Part shown: piece by piece, positions 40,753 to 48,292 of the stretch | How the letters are laid out: each line of letters starts with the position of its first letter | Position numbering within the stretch: the stretch's first letter is position 1 | NCBI GenBank assembly: GCA_002862305.1 | Contig: PKCS01000044.1 | Location: forward strand, 1 to 64,000 | Source of the DNA: Phycisphaerae bacterium | GTDB lineage: Bacteria > Planctomycetota > Phycisphaerae > Phycisphaerales > SM1A02 | Length of the DNA stretch: 64,000 nucleotides | Direction of reading: 5' to 3' | Program-made: the position numbers and the translations under genes | The notes under the pieces: model-generated | What the model was told of the DNA's origin: nothing | What the model saw: only the letters and a program-made list of their open reading frames with translations | Database searches by the model: none

Positions 40753-40892
40753 TGCATTTCCTGCCGTACGGCACCAAGAGGGTCAAGAATCTGGCGAATG
40801 CGGATCAACTGGGAAACCGAATAACCCTGCAAAGTCATGCCCAGCCGTTCTTTATGCATCAGTTCGAAGCGAGCGGGCCATGCACACAATTC

Positions 40893-40925
40893 CTTAACAC
40901 TTTCTAAACTGTTTCTGAACAGTCC
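40893..40925 (+). promoter_or_regulatory. Pho-box-like triple 11-bp direct repeat
   Basis: Three contiguous 11-mers: CTTAACACTTT, CTAAACTGTTT and CTGAACAGTCC, sharing C-T-x-A-A-C at identical phase (40893, 40904, 40915). This is the 7-mer plus 4-nt spacer layout of PhoB/PhoP boxes. TACTGT 9-10 bp downstream would be the -10. The downstream gene is an OprO/OprP-like (phosphate-selective-type) porin. Confidence 0.55.
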
Positions 40926-40980
40926 AATTTTACTGTTCCGCCCCATGGGCTTGCCGACATAGGCACCCATGCAAGAGCAA

Positions 40981-41022
40981 CCGTCCAATCCGTACCTCGG
41001 TGGTACGGGCACGAACGGACGG
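40981..41022 (+). promoter_or_regulatory. Nested hairpin in the leader of the first porin mRNA
   Basis: Inner stem CCGTACC/GGTACGG (loop tcggt) enclosed by an outer stem CCGTCC/GGACGG. It ends about 65 nt before the porin ATG. Confidence 0.5.
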
Positions 41023-41086
41023 GTGGATGGATTAGGTCTCGGGTTCGCCTGAGCCGACCCCGAACCTATTCTGGAGAGTCGATCTG

Positions 41087-42574
41087 ATGACGATGATCAG
41101 AACTACCGGGCTCCTTACTGGAGCCATCACCCTGGCGTTCACCGGCATTGCTGGTGCGTCAGACAACGACAACGCGTCCATTGACGCCCTGCGTGCCGAG
41201 CTCAACGAGCTTCGTGCACAGAACAACAGCCTTGTCGCCCGCGTTGATGCGCAGGACGCCGAGTGGCTCAACGAAGAGCGCGCGAGCGAGATTCGTGGCA
41301 TCGTCCAGGACGTCCTGGCCGACAGCCAGAGCCGCACCAGCCTCCAGGACAGCGGCATGATGGCTGGCTACAAGGCCGGCAAGGGCTTCTTCCTGAGCAA
41401 TCAGGATGGCAGCTTCAGCCTCAACGTCAGCGGCCAGCTGCAGACCCGCTGGGTGTTCAACAACAACCCTGATCCCCTCGTAATCGGTGCTGGTGGCGAA
41501 ATCACCAAGCAGAATTCCGAGGAGACGAACTGGGGCTTCCAGGTACGCCGTGCCAAGGTTCGATTCCAGGGCAACGTCGTCGATCCCAGCTGGACCTACC
41601 AGATCAACGGCTCCTTCGAGGGCCCCGACAACGCCCTCGGCAACCCCACCAACGGCGGCACCTTCGAATTCCAGGAGGCCTTCATCGCGAAGGAGCTCGA
41701 GAATGGTCTGGTCCTGACCTTCGGTCAGTTCAAGACCCCCTGGATGCGCGAAGAGCTGGTCGACAGCTCCCAGCAGCTCGCCGTCGAGCGCTCGCTCATC
41801 AACGAGATCTTCAACCAGGATCGTGCCGTTGGCATCATGGCCTCGTACCAGACCGATGACTGGAACATCGCCGCGTCGTACAACAACGGCCAGCGAACCG
41901 CCGTCGAACAGAGCCAGCGCTACACCAACTTCTCCGACAACCCCACCAACTGGTCCTTCTCGGGCCGCTTCGAGTGGAAGATGTCGGGTGACTGGAGCGA
42001 CTTCGACAGCTTCACCAGCTCCCCGGAGCAGCAGGAAGCCATGATGCTCGGTGTCGCCTTCATGGGTCAGCGGTACGACAGCAACGCCGGGAACGCCAAC
42101 TTCCCCGTCTTCCCCGGTGTTGACCTCAACGGCACGACTGTCTGGGGCATCACTGGTGACTTCTCCGCCAAGTTCAACGGATTCAGCCTCTTCGTCTCCG
42201 GCGTCTGGCAGAACTACGACCCCAATAACGACGCCGACAGCTACGACCCCTGGGGCTTCGTGGTCCAGGGTGGCTACTCCCTCAACGACGAGTGGGAGAT
42301 CTTCGCCCGCTACGCGGAAGGCAACGCTTCCGTTGACAAGTTCTCTCAGCAGCAGAATGTCAACACCTTCATCACCGAAGGCGGCAACCCCTCGATCCTG
42401 ACCCTTGGTGCCAACTACTTCATCAACGACAACGTCAAGTTCACCGTTGACTGGGGCATCAACTTCGCCGACGCGCTTGACCTCTTCGGTGCGCCCTCGT
42501 CCGACACCGGATGGGAAAGCTCGGATGGCAGCAGTCAGTGGATCATTCGTGCCCAGCTCCAGCTGCTCTTCTGA
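41087..42574 (+). CDS. Porin 1, phosphate-selective OprO/OprP-like family
   Basis: 495 residues. Signal peptide (TTGLLTGAITLAFTGIAGA), then a coiled coil (about 25-60, SIDALRAELNELRAQNNSL) and the shared motif EIRGIVQDVLADSQSRTSLQ, then an amphipathic barrel starting GFFLSNQDGSFSLNVSGQLQTRW. FGQFKTPWMREELVDSSQQLAVERS and the terminal IIRAQLQLLF are typical of PF07396-type porins. Forms a trimeric outer-membrane channel; the periplasmic coiled coil may contact peptidoglycan (inference). Codon choice is less GC3-extreme than in neighbours, suggesting high expression. Preceded by a Pho-like box. Confidence 0.88.
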   Translation: MTMIRTTGLLTGAITLAFTGIAGASDNDNASIDALRAELNELRAQNNSLVARVDAQDAEWLNEERASEIRGIVQDVLADSQSRTSLQDSGMMAGYKAGKGFFLSNQDGSFSLNVSGQLQTRWVFNNNPDPLVIGAGGEITKQNSEETNWGFQVRRAKVRFQGNVVDPSWTYQINGSFEGPDNALGNPTNGGTFEFQEAFIAKELENGLVLTFGQFKTPWMREELVDSSQQLAVERSLINEIFNQDRAVGIMASYQTDDWNIAASYNNGQRTAVEQSQRYTNFSDNPTNWSFSGRFEWKMSGDWSDFDSFTSSPEQQEAMMLGVAFMGQRYDSNAGNANFPVFPGVDLNGTTVWGITGDFSAKFNGFSLFVSGVWQNYDPNNDADSYDPWGFVVQGGYSLNDEWEIFARYAEGNASVDKFSQQQNVNTFITEGGNPSILTLGANYFINDNVKFTVDWGINFADALDLFGAPSSDTGWESSDGSSQWIIRAQLQLLF

Positions 42575-42602: not shown

Positions 42603-42678
42603 ATCCACCCAACGATCGCCCCTTGGGGCATCGAACGGCTCGGCCGGCCGGTTCCTCGGAACCGGCCGGTTTTCTCAT
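42603..42678 (+). repeat. Porin 3'-end repeat, copy 1
   Basis: About 75 nt beginning catccacccaacgatcgcc and ending in the terminator; a close copy follows the third porin (46309-46384). Confidence 0.75.
42645..42670 (+). terminator. Terminator of porin 1
   Basis: Perfect 12-bp stem CCGGCCGGTTCC / GGAACCGGCCGG with a 2-nt loop, followed by ttttctc. Confidence 0.85.
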
Positions 42679-42832: not shown

Positions 42833-44512
42833 ATGAGTCACGCCTCAACCACCCATTTCGCTCTCGCCGCGGCTTCGGTCCTGCTGGCCACCAGCGCCCT
42901 CCATGGGCAGGTCTCCCTCGAGGCCCCGGTCGGTGCCACGCTGCAGGAGGATTCCCTGGAGGCGCTTCGTGCCGACTTCGAGGCACTCCGACGACACAAC
43001 GAGGCACTCGAACGAAGCAACCAGTCCCTCGCGGAACGAAACGAGGCGCTCAGTTCAAGCCTGGCGGTCCAGAACCAGGACTGGCTGGACGCGGATCGAG
43101 TGGCCGAGATCCGTGGCATCGTCCAGGACGTGCTGGCGGACACCCAGGGCCGCACCAGCCTGCAGGACGGGGGGCTCTCGGCCGGCTATTCAGCCGGAAG
43201 GGGATTCTTCATCGGCAGCCAGGACGGGTCCTTCAACCTCAACGTCAACGGCCAGCTCCAGACCCGCTGGGTGTTCAACCGGAATCCCGGGAGCACCCCC
43301 GGGGTCTCGGAGTCTGACTGGGGTTTCCAGGTCCGGCGGGCAAAGGTCCGCTTCCAGGGCAACGTCATCGACCCCTCCTGGACCTACCAGATCAACGGGT
43401 CATTCGAAGGGCCCGACGCCCCCGGTCTGACGATCGGCGGCCCGGTGCAGGGGCCGGGTGGTGGCGCCCTCGTGACCGGCACCATCGGGGTCCGCTCCCC
43501 TTCGAATGGGGGGACGTTCGAGTTCCAGGAGGTGTTCATCGCCAAGCAACTCGAGAACGGCATCGTCCTGACCGTCGGCCAGTTCAAGACCCCGTGGATG
43601 CGCGAGGAGCTCGTCGACAGCTCCCAGCAGCTCGCCGTCGAACGGTCGGTGATCAACGAATTCTTCAATCAGGACCGAGCCGTCGGGGTCATGGCGAGCT
43701 ACCAGTCCGACAGCTGGAGCCTGGCGGGTTCCTACAACAACGGGCAGGCGACCGCCGTCTACCAGGACACCCGCTACACCAACCTCTCCAACAGTCCCAC
43801 CGACTGGGCGTTCTCCGCCCGGTTCCAGTGGAAGTTCACCGGAGACTGGAGCGACTTCGACAGCTTCACCAGCGACAACACCACCGAAACGGCCGTGATG
43901 GTCGGAGTCGCCGCGATGGGTCAGCAGTACGGCCTGAACTCGGTCTTCGCACGGGTGAGGAACGTCAACAACGCAAGTTCGACCGCCGACCTCAGCCTCG
44001 ACTCAACCACGGTCTGGGGGGTGACTGCCGACATCTCCGCCAAGTTCAGCGGGTGGAGCATCTTCGCCGCCGCGGTGTGGCAGTACTACGATCCGACCAT
44101 CCAGAAGCGGGACACGGGTTCGGTCCCCCTGAACGCCTTTAACAACACCCAGAGTTTCGAAAGCTACAACCCCTGGGGCTTCGTGGTGCAGGCGGGGTAC
44201 GCCCTGACTGCCGACGCCGATGGAAACGCCAAGTGGGAGCTCTTCGCCCGCTACGAGGAGGGCAACGCCGCCGATGATCGCTTCGACTCGATCATCCCGG
44301 GGCAGTCGACGGTGGAGGGTGGCACGCCGTCGATCCTCACGGTGGGTGCCAACTACTTCTTCAACGACAACGTCAAGTTCACCGTCGACTGGGGGATCAA
44401 CTTCGCCGAGGAGATGAGCCTCTTCGCCCAGTCCCCCTCCGTCGCCGGCTGGGAATCCTCGGATGCCCCCGACCAGTGGGTCCTTCGTGCCCAGATGCAG
44501 CTGATCTTCTGA
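42833..44512 (+). CDS. Porin 2, OprO/OprP-like
   Basis: 559 residues, paralogue of porin 1. Signal peptide FALAAASVLLATSALHGQ, coiled coil (EALRADFEALRRHNEALERS and onwards, about 37-75), EIRGIVQDVLADTQGRTSLQ, then the barrel. Compared with porin 1 it has extra loops, e.g. a Gly-rich insert around residues 197-222 (GGPVQGPGGGALVTG). The core strand FGQFKTPW equivalent is VGQFKTPWMREELVDSSQQL. Ends VLRAQMQLIF. Start at 42833 chosen because the signal peptide begins there; only a weak GGAG lies upstream. Confidence 0.88.
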   Translation: MSHASTTHFALAAASVLLATSALHGQVSLEAPVGATLQEDSLEALRADFEALRRHNEALERSNQSLAERNEALSSSLAVQNQDWLDADRVAEIRGIVQDVLADTQGRTSLQDGGLSAGYSAGRGFFIGSQDGSFNLNVNGQLQTRWVFNRNPGSTPGVSESDWGFQVRRAKVRFQGNVIDPSWTYQINGSFEGPDAPGLTIGGPVQGPGGGALVTGTIGVRSPSNGGTFEFQEVFIAKQLENGIVLTVGQFKTPWMREELVDSSQQLAVERSVINEFFNQDRAVGVMASYQSDSWSLAGSYNNGQATAVYQDTRYTNLSNSPTDWAFSARFQWKFTGDWSDFDSFTSDNTTETAVMVGVAAMGQQYGLNSVFARVRNVNNASSTADLSLDSTTVWGVTADISAKFSGWSIFAAAVWQYYDPTIQKRDTGSVPLNAFNNTQSFESYNPWGFVVQAGYALTADADGNAKWELFARYEEGNAADDRFDSIIPGQSTVEGGTPSILTVGANYFFNDNVKFTVDWGINFAEEMSLFAQSPSVAGWESSDAPDQWVLRAQMQLIF

Positions 44513-44576: not shown

Positions 44577-44689
44577 CTGTCTCTCGTCCAGGCCCTCGGG
44601 CGACCAGATGGCGTTTTGTTGAGATCCTCCGAGCGTCGAGTTAAGAATGCTCGAATCGAATCTTTCCAACGTGTAAGGAATGTGATCCA

Positions 44690-44777: not shown

Positions 44778-46280
44778 ATGACTCATGACCTGAAGACCCT
44801 TGCGTGCTGCACCCTCATGGCCCTCCTGGCCGGCACAAGCGTGTCCCACGGCGGCCCTCCACCCGCCGGTCCCGATTCGACGGATTCCATCGAGTCGCTC
44901 CGGGCGGACCTCGAGGCCCTGCGCCTCCACACCGAGTCCCTGGAACAGCGCAACGAGGCGCTCGGGGCCAGCCTCGAGACCCAGAACCGGGACTGGCTCA
45001 ACGCCGAGCGTGCCGCGGAGATCCGGGGGATCGTCCAGGACGTCCTCGCGGACAGCCAGTCGCGGACCAGCCTGCAGGACTCCGGCATGATGGCCGGGTA
45101 CAAGCCGGGCAAGGGGTTCTACATCGGGAACCAGGACGGCTCCTTCTCGCTTCAGATCACCGGACAAATCCAGACTCGCTGGGTGCTGAACTACACCAAG
45201 CAGAGCTTCGCCGATCGAGGCACCAACACCGAGAACAGTCCCAAGACGACCTGGGGATTCCAGATCCGGCGGGCAAAGGTGAAGTTCAAGGGGAACGTGA
45301 TCGACAAGAGCTGGAAGTACGCCATCAATGGTGCCTTCGGGAGTGACGGCATCTTTGATTTCGAGGATGTCATGCTCTCGAAGGTCTTCGAGAACGGCGT
45401 CACGATGACGCTCGGTCAGTTCAAGACGCCCTGGCTGCGGGAAGAACTCGTCAGCAGTTCCCGCCAGCTGGCGGTCGAGCGTTCGGTCGTCAACGAATTC
45501 TTCAATCAGGATCGTGCCGTCGGCCTCTTTGTCGCCTGGAAGAACGACGACTGGTCGCTGGCCGGTTCCTACAACAATGGTCAACGAACGCTGCTCAACG
45601 CCGACGAGCGCTACACCAACTTCCTCGACAACCCCACCAAGTGGGCCTTCTCAGCACGGGCCGAATACAAGTTGTCGGGAGACTGGAGTGATTTCAAGGG
45701 GTTCAACGGTGGAATCGATCAGGATCAGGCCGTGATGATCGGGGTCGCGTTCATGGGTCAGCAGTACAACGATCAGGTGATTGATGGCTCGATTCCAGGT
45801 GCGCCGACCATACCGGTCGAATACGACAACTCCACCGTCTGGGGCGTCACCGCCGACATCTCGGCGAAGTTCCAGAACATCAGCTTGTTCGCGGCCGGAG
45901 TCTTCCAGAGCTATGACACCAAGGGCAGCGAGAAGAATCAGGGATTCGATCTCTCCGAGTATGCACCATGGGGATTCGTGGTGCAGGGAGGCTGGTCGGT
46001 CAATGATGAATGGGAACTCCTCGCTCGCTATGAAAACGGAAACGTCCCGATCGAGGACCTGAAGGTTGCAGGCGCCCCCCTCGACACCCGCGGGGGCGTC
46101 GCCTCGATCCTGACCGTGGGCGCCAACTGGTTCCTCAACAGCAAGGTCAAGTTCACCGCGGACTGGGGAATCAACTTCGCCGACGACCTCAACACCTTCG
46201 ACGATCCCGGGGACGGTTGGCGTGACTCGGGTACCAGCGATGAATGGGTTCTTCGCGCCCAGCTCCAGCTGCTCTTCTGA
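44778..46280 (+). CDS. Porin 3, OprO/OprP-like
   Basis: 500 residues, closest in layout to porin 1. Signal peptide LKTLACCTLMALLAGTSVSHG, coiled coil (SIESLRADLEALRLHTESLE), EIRGIVQDVLADSQSRTSLQ and GMMAGYKPGKGFYIGNQDGS. The barrel includes LGQFKTPWLREELVSSSRQL and ends VLRAQLQLLF. The second half is noticeably less GC3-biased than the flanks. It shares its 3' terminator repeat with porin 1, evidence for tandem duplication of gene plus terminator. Confidence 0.88.
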   Translation: MTHDLKTLACCTLMALLAGTSVSHGGPPPAGPDSTDSIESLRADLEALRLHTESLEQRNEALGASLETQNRDWLNAERAAEIRGIVQDVLADSQSRTSLQDSGMMAGYKPGKGFYIGNQDGSFSLQITGQIQTRWVLNYTKQSFADRGTNTENSPKTTWGFQIRRAKVKFKGNVIDKSWKYAINGAFGSDGIFDFEDVMLSKVFENGVTMTLGQFKTPWLREELVSSSRQLAVERSVVNEFFNQDRAVGLFVAWKNDDWSLAGSYNNGQRTLLNADERYTNFLDNPTKWAFSARAEYKLSGDWSDFKGFNGGIDQDQAVMIGVAFMGQQYNDQVIDGSIPGAPTIPVEYDNSTVWGVTADISAKFQNISLFAAGVFQSYDTKGSEKNQGFDLSEYAPWGFVVQGGWSVNDEWELLARYENGNVPIEDLKVAGAPLDTRGGVASILTVGANWFLNSKVKFTADWGINFADDLNTFDDPGDGWRDSGTSDEWVLRAQLQLLF

Positions 46281-46615: not shown

Positions 46616-48292
46616 ATGCAGGGCGTGAACGAGATGCAGTCAGGTGTGAGCAGGAAGGCCCCTCGACCCGCCAGGATGTCTTCCTGGCCGACCTTCGCCA
46701 TCGCCCTCTCGGGCACCGTGCTGGCCTTCGCGGCCCCGAGCGGGGCCCAGGACGACGCGGCCAGCGCCCTCGAGGACCGGCTGGACAGCCTGGAGCGGGA
46801 CAACGCGCACCTCCGTGCGGAAGTCGACGCCCTGCGTGCCGAGACCAACCAGGAATGGCTGACCGAACAGCGGGCCACCGAGATCCGGGGCATCGTCACC
46901 GACGTCCTGGCCGATTCCGCCACCCGGACCAGCCTCCAGAACGCCGGGGCCACCGCCGGCTGGAACTCCCAGCTCGGCTTCTACCTCAAGAGTGCCGACA
47001 ACCGCTTCTCCCTCCAGGTGGGGGGGCTGGTGCAGGCCAGGTACATCTTCTCGAACACCAGCGACGGCGGGTTCCGCAACCAGGAGAACCTGGGGAACGC
47101 CGCGATCAATGGGAACGCACAGCAGTACCCAAGTTCCCAGTACGGCTTCGACATGCCCCACACCCGGCTGGTCTTCAAGGGCCACGTCTTCGAGCCGGGC
47201 ATCCGCTACTACCTGCGCACCCAGTTCGCGCCGGTCGACACCTTCACGCCGGGCACCAGCTACATCAATCCGGTGTCCGCCGGTGCCCTGGACGTGCTCG
47301 ATGCCTACGTGACCTTCGACCTCGACAACCAGTGGAGCCTCCGGGTCGGGCAGTTCAAGCTGCCCTTCTCGCGCGAGCGGCTGGTCTCGGTGCAGAACCT
47401 CCTGACCGCCACCACCTCCTTCGTCGACGACATCCAGGGCGTGGGACGCTCCCAGGGCGTGGAGCTCTCCACCCGCGGGGACGACCTCCACTGGTCGGTC
47501 GCGATCTCCGACGGCGGGACCGACAACCTCCTCGCCGGGATCTCGAACAACAGCGGCTACTTCCCGATCGGCACCGCCCCGGTGAATTCGCCCTACTGGG
47601 ATTCGCAGGCGGAATTCTCGATCACCTCCCGCGTCGAGTACAAGCTCGCCGGGACCTGGGACGAGTTCTCGGAGATGACGAGCCCGATGGGCGAGGCGGA
47701 GGGGCTCATGCTCGGCCTGGCCGGTCACTTCCAGACCGGATCGCGGCCCACCACCGACAGCATTCCCGGAGGCATCCCGGCGACCGGGTTGTACAGTTCG
47801 TCCGGAAACAACGAGTGGATGAACGTGACCGCCGACGTGACCTGGAACCTGGGTGGAGCGTCCCTGTTCGGTGCGATCTACTACTCGAACGCCGATACCA
47901 AGTGGAGCCGGCTCTTACTCCCCCAAGGGGGCGGCAACGGGGCACCCACAGTGAACGGAACCACCCGCCTCCTGGGGTTGGTGGTGCAGGGATCGGTGTA
48001 CCTGACCGAGAAGTGGGAGGTCTACGGTCGCTACCAGTTCCTGGATCCCCTCAGCGCGCCCGAAACCAAGCCGCCCGGACCGAACGCGGTACCCGCCACG
48101 TTTTCCTCGCTCAACGCCATCAACCTCGGTGCCAACTGGTACATCGACGGGCAGGACGTCCGCTGGACCTTCGAGATGGGCTACGCGTTCAACCAGGTTC
48201 GGAGCACCAACGCCACGGTCGGCAACGGGTTCCGGCCCACGGACTCCGGGTACGAGTTCGTGCTCCTGACGCAGTTGCAGCTCCAGTTCTAG
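46616..48292 (+). CDS. Porin 4, divergent OprO/OprP-like
   Basis: 558 residues. GGAGG 8 nt before ATG 46616 fixes the start, giving an N-terminus with a long n-region (about 20 residues, basic) before the hydrophobic core WPTFAIALSGTVLAFAAPSGA. Coiled coil ALEDRLDSLERDNAHLRAEVDALRAE (split over about 50-75), then EIRGIVTDVLADSATRTSLQ. The barrel is clearly more distant from porins 1-3 (VGQFKLPFSRERLVSVQNLL) and ends LLTQLQLQF. Probably an older paralogue with different solute specificity. Confidence 0.85.
   Translation: MQGVNEMQSGVSRKAPRPARMSSWPTFAIALSGTVLAFAAPSGAQDDAASALEDRLDSLERDNAHLRAEVDALRAETNQEWLTEQRATEIRGIVTDVLADSATRTSLQNAGATAGWNSQLGFYLKSADNRFSLQVGGLVQARYIFSNTSDGGFRNQENLGNAAINGNAQQYPSSQYGFDMPHTRLVFKGHVFEPGIRYYLRTQFAPVDTFTPGTSYINPVSAGALDVLDAYVTFDLDNQWSLRVGQFKLPFSRERLVSVQNLLTATTSFVDDIQGVGRSQGVELSTRGDDLHWSVAISDGGTDNLLAGISNNSGYFPIGTAPVNSPYWDSQAEFSITSRVEYKLAGTWDEFSEMTSPMGEAEGLMLGLAGHFQTGSRPTTDSIPGGIPATGLYSSSGNNEWMNVTADVTWNLGGASLFGAIYYSNADTKWSRLLLPQGGGNGAPTVNGTTRLLGLVVQGSVYLTEKWEVYGRYQFLDPLSAPETKPPGPNAVPATFSSLNAINLGANWYIDGQDVRWTFEMGYAFNQVRSTNATVGNGFRPTDSGYEFVLLTQLQLQF

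Follow-up and report, generated by a model that had tools for sequence, protein, structure and literature searches.

What switches on the porin gene that begins at position 41087 of this planctomycete DNA, and is phosphate the signal? We analysed the whole stretch of 64,000 nucleotides (the window), its draft genome and the genomes of relatives. Judged from sequence, positions 40893-40936 very probably form a PhoB-activated Pho-regulon promoter that drives porin 1 through a conserved leader, which as a whole is the best explanation of the locus. The promoter has the following features, all on the forward strand.

40893-40903 (+): Pho-box repeat 1, CTTAACACTTT (sequence, genome pattern scan, matrix score).
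40904-40914 (+): Pho-box repeat 2, CTAAACTGTTT (sequence, genome pattern scan, matrix score).
40915-40925 (+): Pho-box repeat 3, CTGAACAGTCC, in the place of the -35 (the same evidence and comparison with orthologs).
40931-40936 (+): -10 hexamer TACTGT (the same in five porin promoters).
40882-40892 (+): position of a decayed fourth, upstream repeat, GCACACAATTC, in phase and of low score in the window.
40943-40945 (+): predicted transcription start, 7-9 nt past the -10; the RNA model begins at 40944.

A Pho box requires at least two head-to-tail half-sites with an 11-bp period; the porin promoter has three and its orthologs have four. The original prediction had described three in-phase 11-mers at 40893-40925 followed by TACTGT, and both its positions and its letters were exact. 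Five nucleotides (AATTT) lie between repeat 3 and the hexamer, so that the -10 is 5 nt from the last 11-mer and 9 nt from the last 7-mer. The further claim that this is the spacing of pho promoters held for the fixed short distance but not for its exact value, since 9 nt is near but unequal to the 10 bp of E. coli. The pattern (CTNAACN5)x3 had only one perfect match in the 2.67-Mb draft genome, the porin site, and the runner-up had 2 mismatches.

The promoter is followed by a run of porin genes.

41087-42574 (+): porin 1, Porin_O_P (PF07396), 495 aa, the target of the promoter (Pfam).
42642-42671 (+): strong terminator-like hairpin and then a T-rich stretch, after porin 1 (-32.1 kcal/mol, z -4.5).
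42836-44512 (+): porin 2, PF07396, no Pho box upstream (Pfam, matrix scan).
44778-46280 (+): porin 3, PF07396, no forward-orientation Pho box upstream (Pfam, matrix scan).
46616-48292 (+): porin 4, PF07396, start uncertain, no Pho box upstream (Pfam, matrix scan).

The four PF07396 genes are in tandem with porin 1 first, the genome has no others, and Pho repeats precede porin 1 only. The assignment of the downstream gene to the phosphate-selective porin family was borne out (Porin_O_P, E 4.5e-20, 72.7 bits against a gathering cut-off of 20.9). Membership of Porin_O_P alone is no proof of phosphate selectivity, which is only a possible property of porin 1, since this protein showed no detectable sequence match to solved structures, OprP included. 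Strong terminator-like hairpins come after porins 1, 2 and 3, and porin 1 is therefore probably transcribed by itself. A consensus promoter and terminator scan missed the Pho promoter and these three hairpins, which were revealed by folding. Between porins 2 and 3, at 44637-44689 (-), two weak Pho-like matches of 12.8 and 9.7 bits lie 33 bp apart.

The original prediction missed that the leader between promoter and porin 1 is a covarying two-hairpin RNA.

40944-41092 (+): structured 5' leader RNA, full model R2 including the start codon (fold, covariation).
40944-40971 (+): hairpin 1 (fold; 7 of 7 pairs changed on both sides among relatives).
40981-41022 (+): hairpin 2, CCGTCC...GGACGG with an inner stem and the loop GTGG (fold, covariation, RNAalifold).
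41023-41029 (+): GTGGATG, unpaired and near-invariant, past hairpin 2 (alignments).
41029-41072 (+): third, variable hairpin ahead of the ribosome-binding site (fold; length and sequence poorly conserved between genera).
41073-41078 (+): ribosome-binding site GGAGAG (sequence; GGAGAG in most relatives).

The approximately 150 nt from the -10 to the porin are strongly conserved, and the hairpins showed compensatory changes among just three sequences. The core consists of hairpin 1, hairpin 2 (CCGUCCGG ... CC-loop-GUGG ... GGACGG) and the unpaired GUGGAUG. A covariance model of the three sequences matched 41 of 181 family members, once in each. Pair statistics for 30 loci (31 rows, one of them a stray antisense match) showed changes on both sides in 34 of 43 pairs, a count that none of 500 shuffles reached; 91.6% of alignment cells paired, against 28-45% when the partner was slid by 1-3 columns. 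RNAalifold supported 21 pairs in the cleaned alignment, which had been fitted to the first model, and 15 of the 21 had double changes; a structure-free MAFFT alignment recovered the same core. In a sample of 400 genomes of the order, the rebuilt model matched 82, which belong to two families; a sample of 392 genomes of the phylum gave matches in members of these two families only. The first-look search filters lose weak matches, so these figures and those for the motif are lower bounds.

The next gene was porin-type in all strong leader matches examined. Eight downstream genes were searched by Pfam, of which six were PF07396 and two (L120 and L167) were under detection and share an N-terminal signature. 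Leader loci of Porin_O_P-type mRNAs in relatives are L097-L126 and L157-L172. We found no Rfam family at E<=1 for the window region or at E<=0.5 for 15 loci of relatives, and the covariation supports the leader well as a conserved structured RNA that is absent from Rfam. A second match of model R3 in G042 (C143, E 0.002) was weak, preceded no porin and was taken as chance. A long-range pairing of 5' UCAUC with 3' GGAUGA was rejected, with the distal strand invariant; judged by eye, the 5' strand changes together with its local strand (CAUC/GAUG, CACC/GGUG, CAAC/GUUG).

In most loci inspected, read by eye, a TATRAT-like -10 sits 6-8 nt upstream of hairpin 1, and the leader RNA therefore seems to start at the transcription start. 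Pho boxes were found before 5 of the 30 leader-porins inspected, in the window's genus and one other, where they replace the TATRAT-like promoter. Because only these five loci have a Pho-box promoter, the leader looks like the wider and probably the older feature, and Pho control seems to have been added in some of the family's members, an order of events that we infer from the counts and not from a tree.

The leader could be a sensor (a riboswitch or protein-binding element) and not a passive mRNA stabiliser, which would be compatible with Pho control. Specific recognition is suggested by the near-invariant unpaired GTGGATG and the conserved GTGG loop, and the leader sits directly ahead of the ribosome-binding site. 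However, we saw neither a conserved terminator nor an alternative fold that would mask the start, the leader has no Rfam relative, and its gene context is porins only, none of which names a ligand. A sensor is thus possible but rather doubtful. Equally tentative is the suggestion of a new cis-acting RNA class that might sense a signal or bind a dedicated factor and control the porins of the order, and that would form a two-input phosphate-porin switch where a PhoB promoter precedes it. By analogy with known leaders, we prefer the stabiliser as the probable role.

The link of the promoter to phosphate came from pstS. In the upstream regions of pstS from 29 related genomes, with the window's own genome excluded, a de novo search returned the tandem motif CTTAACRCAAT CTTAACAC; unseeded, the tandem motif cCTTAACgCaATCTTAACAc reached 499 bits, against 318-322 in shuffles. 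The scoring matrix was made from 23 of the relatives' pstS sites, with the genome's own sites excluded. By this matrix the porin site scored 21.0 and 19.2 bits in two overlapping registers, the top two scores in the window, and the genome's own pstS and phoB sites scored 17.8 and a weak 11.5 bits, respectively. No score of 17 or more occurred in 5.35 Mb of order-2 Markov sequence. The own pstS site reads CGTAACCGAAT CTTAATGTTCT CCTAACGATTA GTGTT CAGAAT, and its gap between repeat and hexamer equals that of the porin site. The whole-genome scan used the repeat pattern with mismatches, not the matrix, and at up to 3 mismatches gave 20 matches, one directly upstream of pstS and one upstream of phoB. 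The original prediction had set repeat matches near phosphate genes as its test, and these were present before the own pstS at the same spacing, weakly before phoB, and before pstS in relatives; as expected of a Pho box, the same motif precedes a core Pho gene in this genome and in others. A sequence-only covariance model (R1) of the 20-bp Pho box had no match in the own genome; this model was too short, and the matrix and pattern scans were therefore used for the Pho box.

We also scanned 181 family members. The best tandem matches inspected, a selected set on which the family-wide gene assignment rests, precede pstS (seven genomes), a porin (G069) and phoU (G079). A loose 28-base pattern with 3 mismatches gave no clear excess over its reversed control across the family, and its value is therefore in which genes its best matches precede.

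Several other sites were observed. Pho-like tandem repeats at L132, L142 and L144 and at L137 and L143 of relatives stand before DUF3450-like or beta-propeller-like exported proteins, which, named by inspection, are candidate further members of the Pho regulon. A strong match of 19.5 bits at L032:12354-12373 (+) lies at the pstB/phoU junction, at the pstB stop codon, and is oriented opposite to the pst operon, whose genes are on the other strand. Divergent pairs of Pho-box-like arrays at G048:C22:12815-12881 and G023:C122:9867-9964 face apart, as in shared control regions. A Porin_O_P gene is near pstS on the same strand in G013, G017 and G024.

When 41 Pho sites from genomes across the order were aligned on the last repeat, NAN3T stood exactly 8 nt past the last 8-mer in 28, and any other offset occurred in at most 3 of the 41. 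The hexamer was not used in finding the sites, so this fixed offset speaks independently for a genuine PhoB-type promoter, in which the last repeat replaces the -35 at a fixed distance to the -10.

On contig C79, phoB, phoR and the beginning of pstS run in one direction, and the end of contig C17 carries the remainder of pstS and then pstC, pstA, pstB and phoU. The division of pstS over the two contig ends (L034:1-706 on C79, and L032 on C17) points to C79 and C17 as adjacent contigs, and the locus is therefore probably phoB-phoR-pstSCAB-phoU, interrupted by an assembly break. The best named models were of the PhoB and PhoR/PnpS type, and we counted both proteins as encoded, although their scores were below the NCBIfam equivalog cut-offs (PhoB 211.9 against 296.2; PhoR 286.8 against 334.2). 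A whole-genome search for the OmpR/PhoB DNA-binding domain (Trans_reg_C) returned a single gene, phoB, which is an unusually small set for a 2.67-Mb genome. If that regulator family reads the 11-bp site, PhoB is therefore the sole candidate that the assembly offers; as the draft is 97% complete, a second OmpR-type regulator could lie in the missing part.

OmpR/PhoB-family regulators bind tandem sites alike; PhoB could not be told from the others by the layout alone, and the tandem 11-bp repeats might be the operator of another, non-phosphate regulator. This is very unlikely, since the sole Trans_reg_C protein of the genome is encoded with phoR and pstS and the same motif precedes pstS across the order. 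PhoB is thus preferred as the regulator of the porin promoter.

The porin promoter was also compared between relatives. SP135 and TMED75 (nearest named records a Phycisphaerae bacterium and an unclassified planctomycete, respectively) belong to the same genus as the window genome, and G097 and G010 to another genus. The two named records place the window in the planctomycetes and most probably in the Phycisphaerae. The porin 1 protein is 70% identical in SP135 and 83% in TMED75. Their orthologous promoters have four in-phase repeats, 5 nt and TACTGT, with CTAAACGATTC (SP135) and GTTAACAATTC (TMED75) aligned to the decayed 40882-40892, and the G097 and G010 promoters have the same layout of repeats, 5 nt and TACTGT. 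SP135 and TMED75 correspond to G002 and G003 (identical leader sequences), and their porin sites were entered once among the 41. TACTGT is identical across the five porin promoters; the genomes of relatives are not independent samples and counts across them are to be read accordingly.

The same comparison bears on a dyad operator for a dimeric repressor, either ACTGTT-TCTG-AACAGT (within 40908-40923) or GAACAGT-N8-ACTGTTC (40917-40938). Both inverted repeats are truly present in the window, but the first is disrupted in SP135 and TMED75, and the second is kept merely as the last repeat plus the -10, with G010 reading TACTGTCC, one arm shorter. The relatives conserve additional upstream direct repeats instead, and by comparison with the SP135 and TMED75 promoters we rejected the palindromic operators as extremely improbable. 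Chance AT-rich direct repeats in the spacer of a GC-rich genome have a negligible likelihood: the spacer upstream of porin 1 is AT-rich (44-48% GC) and 6 of 100 window shuffles likewise gave two loose matches, but the chance of the porin site computed at that local composition is ~1e-6 per position, and the site is kept in five genomes and common to pstS, with repeats and spacing conserved elsewhere.

The direct repeats are thus best read as a Pho box, for which we propose the following mechanism. The signalling steps from PhoR to PhoB-P are established for PhoBR systems, and under phosphate limitation PhoR would phosphorylate PhoB here. PhoB-P would bind the 11-bp repeats head-to-tail, stand in for the -35 and bring RNA polymerase to TACTGT, a poor -10, and porin 1 would be induced together with pst. 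Activation as the direction of control is what we infer, and phosphate may pass through the channel. The transcript would begin at or next to the leader, whose conserved two-hairpin part spans 40944 to about 41030. The mRNAs of abundant outer-membrane proteins are protected or tuned by their 5' leaders, and by analogy with ompA the leader most likely does the same for the porin mRNA.

Our literature search found no Pho box described for this planctomycete order, and the present sites give it a testable definition with a half-site that is cyanobacteria-like and not E. coli-like. Porin 1 is a candidate for a porin made under phosphate starvation, in marine bacteria whose growth phosphorus plausibly limits. 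The leader is a well-supported RNA element new to Rfam, found on outer-membrane channel genes, a class in which leader RNAs have a known importance.

In the Pho box of E. coli, tandem repeats with an 11-bp period replace the -35 at a fixed short distance to a TAN3T-type -10 (PMC1906773, PMC3348028), a distance quoted as 10 bp (PMC1906773). The planctomycete sites share with this PhoB box (pstS, phoA, phoE) the tandem 11-bp layout and the predicted control of pst and an outer-membrane porin, but their half-site is CTKAACRC and not the E. coli consensus, they have two to four repeats, and the -10 is ~1 bp nearer (9 against 10 bp from the last 7-mer). The cyanobacterial SphR box, CTTAACCT, has 8 bp and a 3-bp linker in at least three copies upstream of pst genes (PMC1906773). 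It is nearly the same in sequence and likewise stands before pst genes, but belongs to a distant phylum, and the planctomycete site is in addition linked with a Porin_O_P gene and with a structured leader. Porin 1 is in the same Pfam family as Pseudomonas OprP and OprO, and OprP is a Pho-regulated channel; in contrast to these, porin 1 has no sequence-level match to solved structures, an N-terminal coiled segment and a place among four tandem paralogs. The mRNA of E. coli ompA, which encodes an abundant outer-membrane protein, has hairpins at its 5' end as the porin mRNA does; the sequences are unrelated, and in the porin leader the fold and the unpaired GTGGATG are conserved within the planctomycete order.
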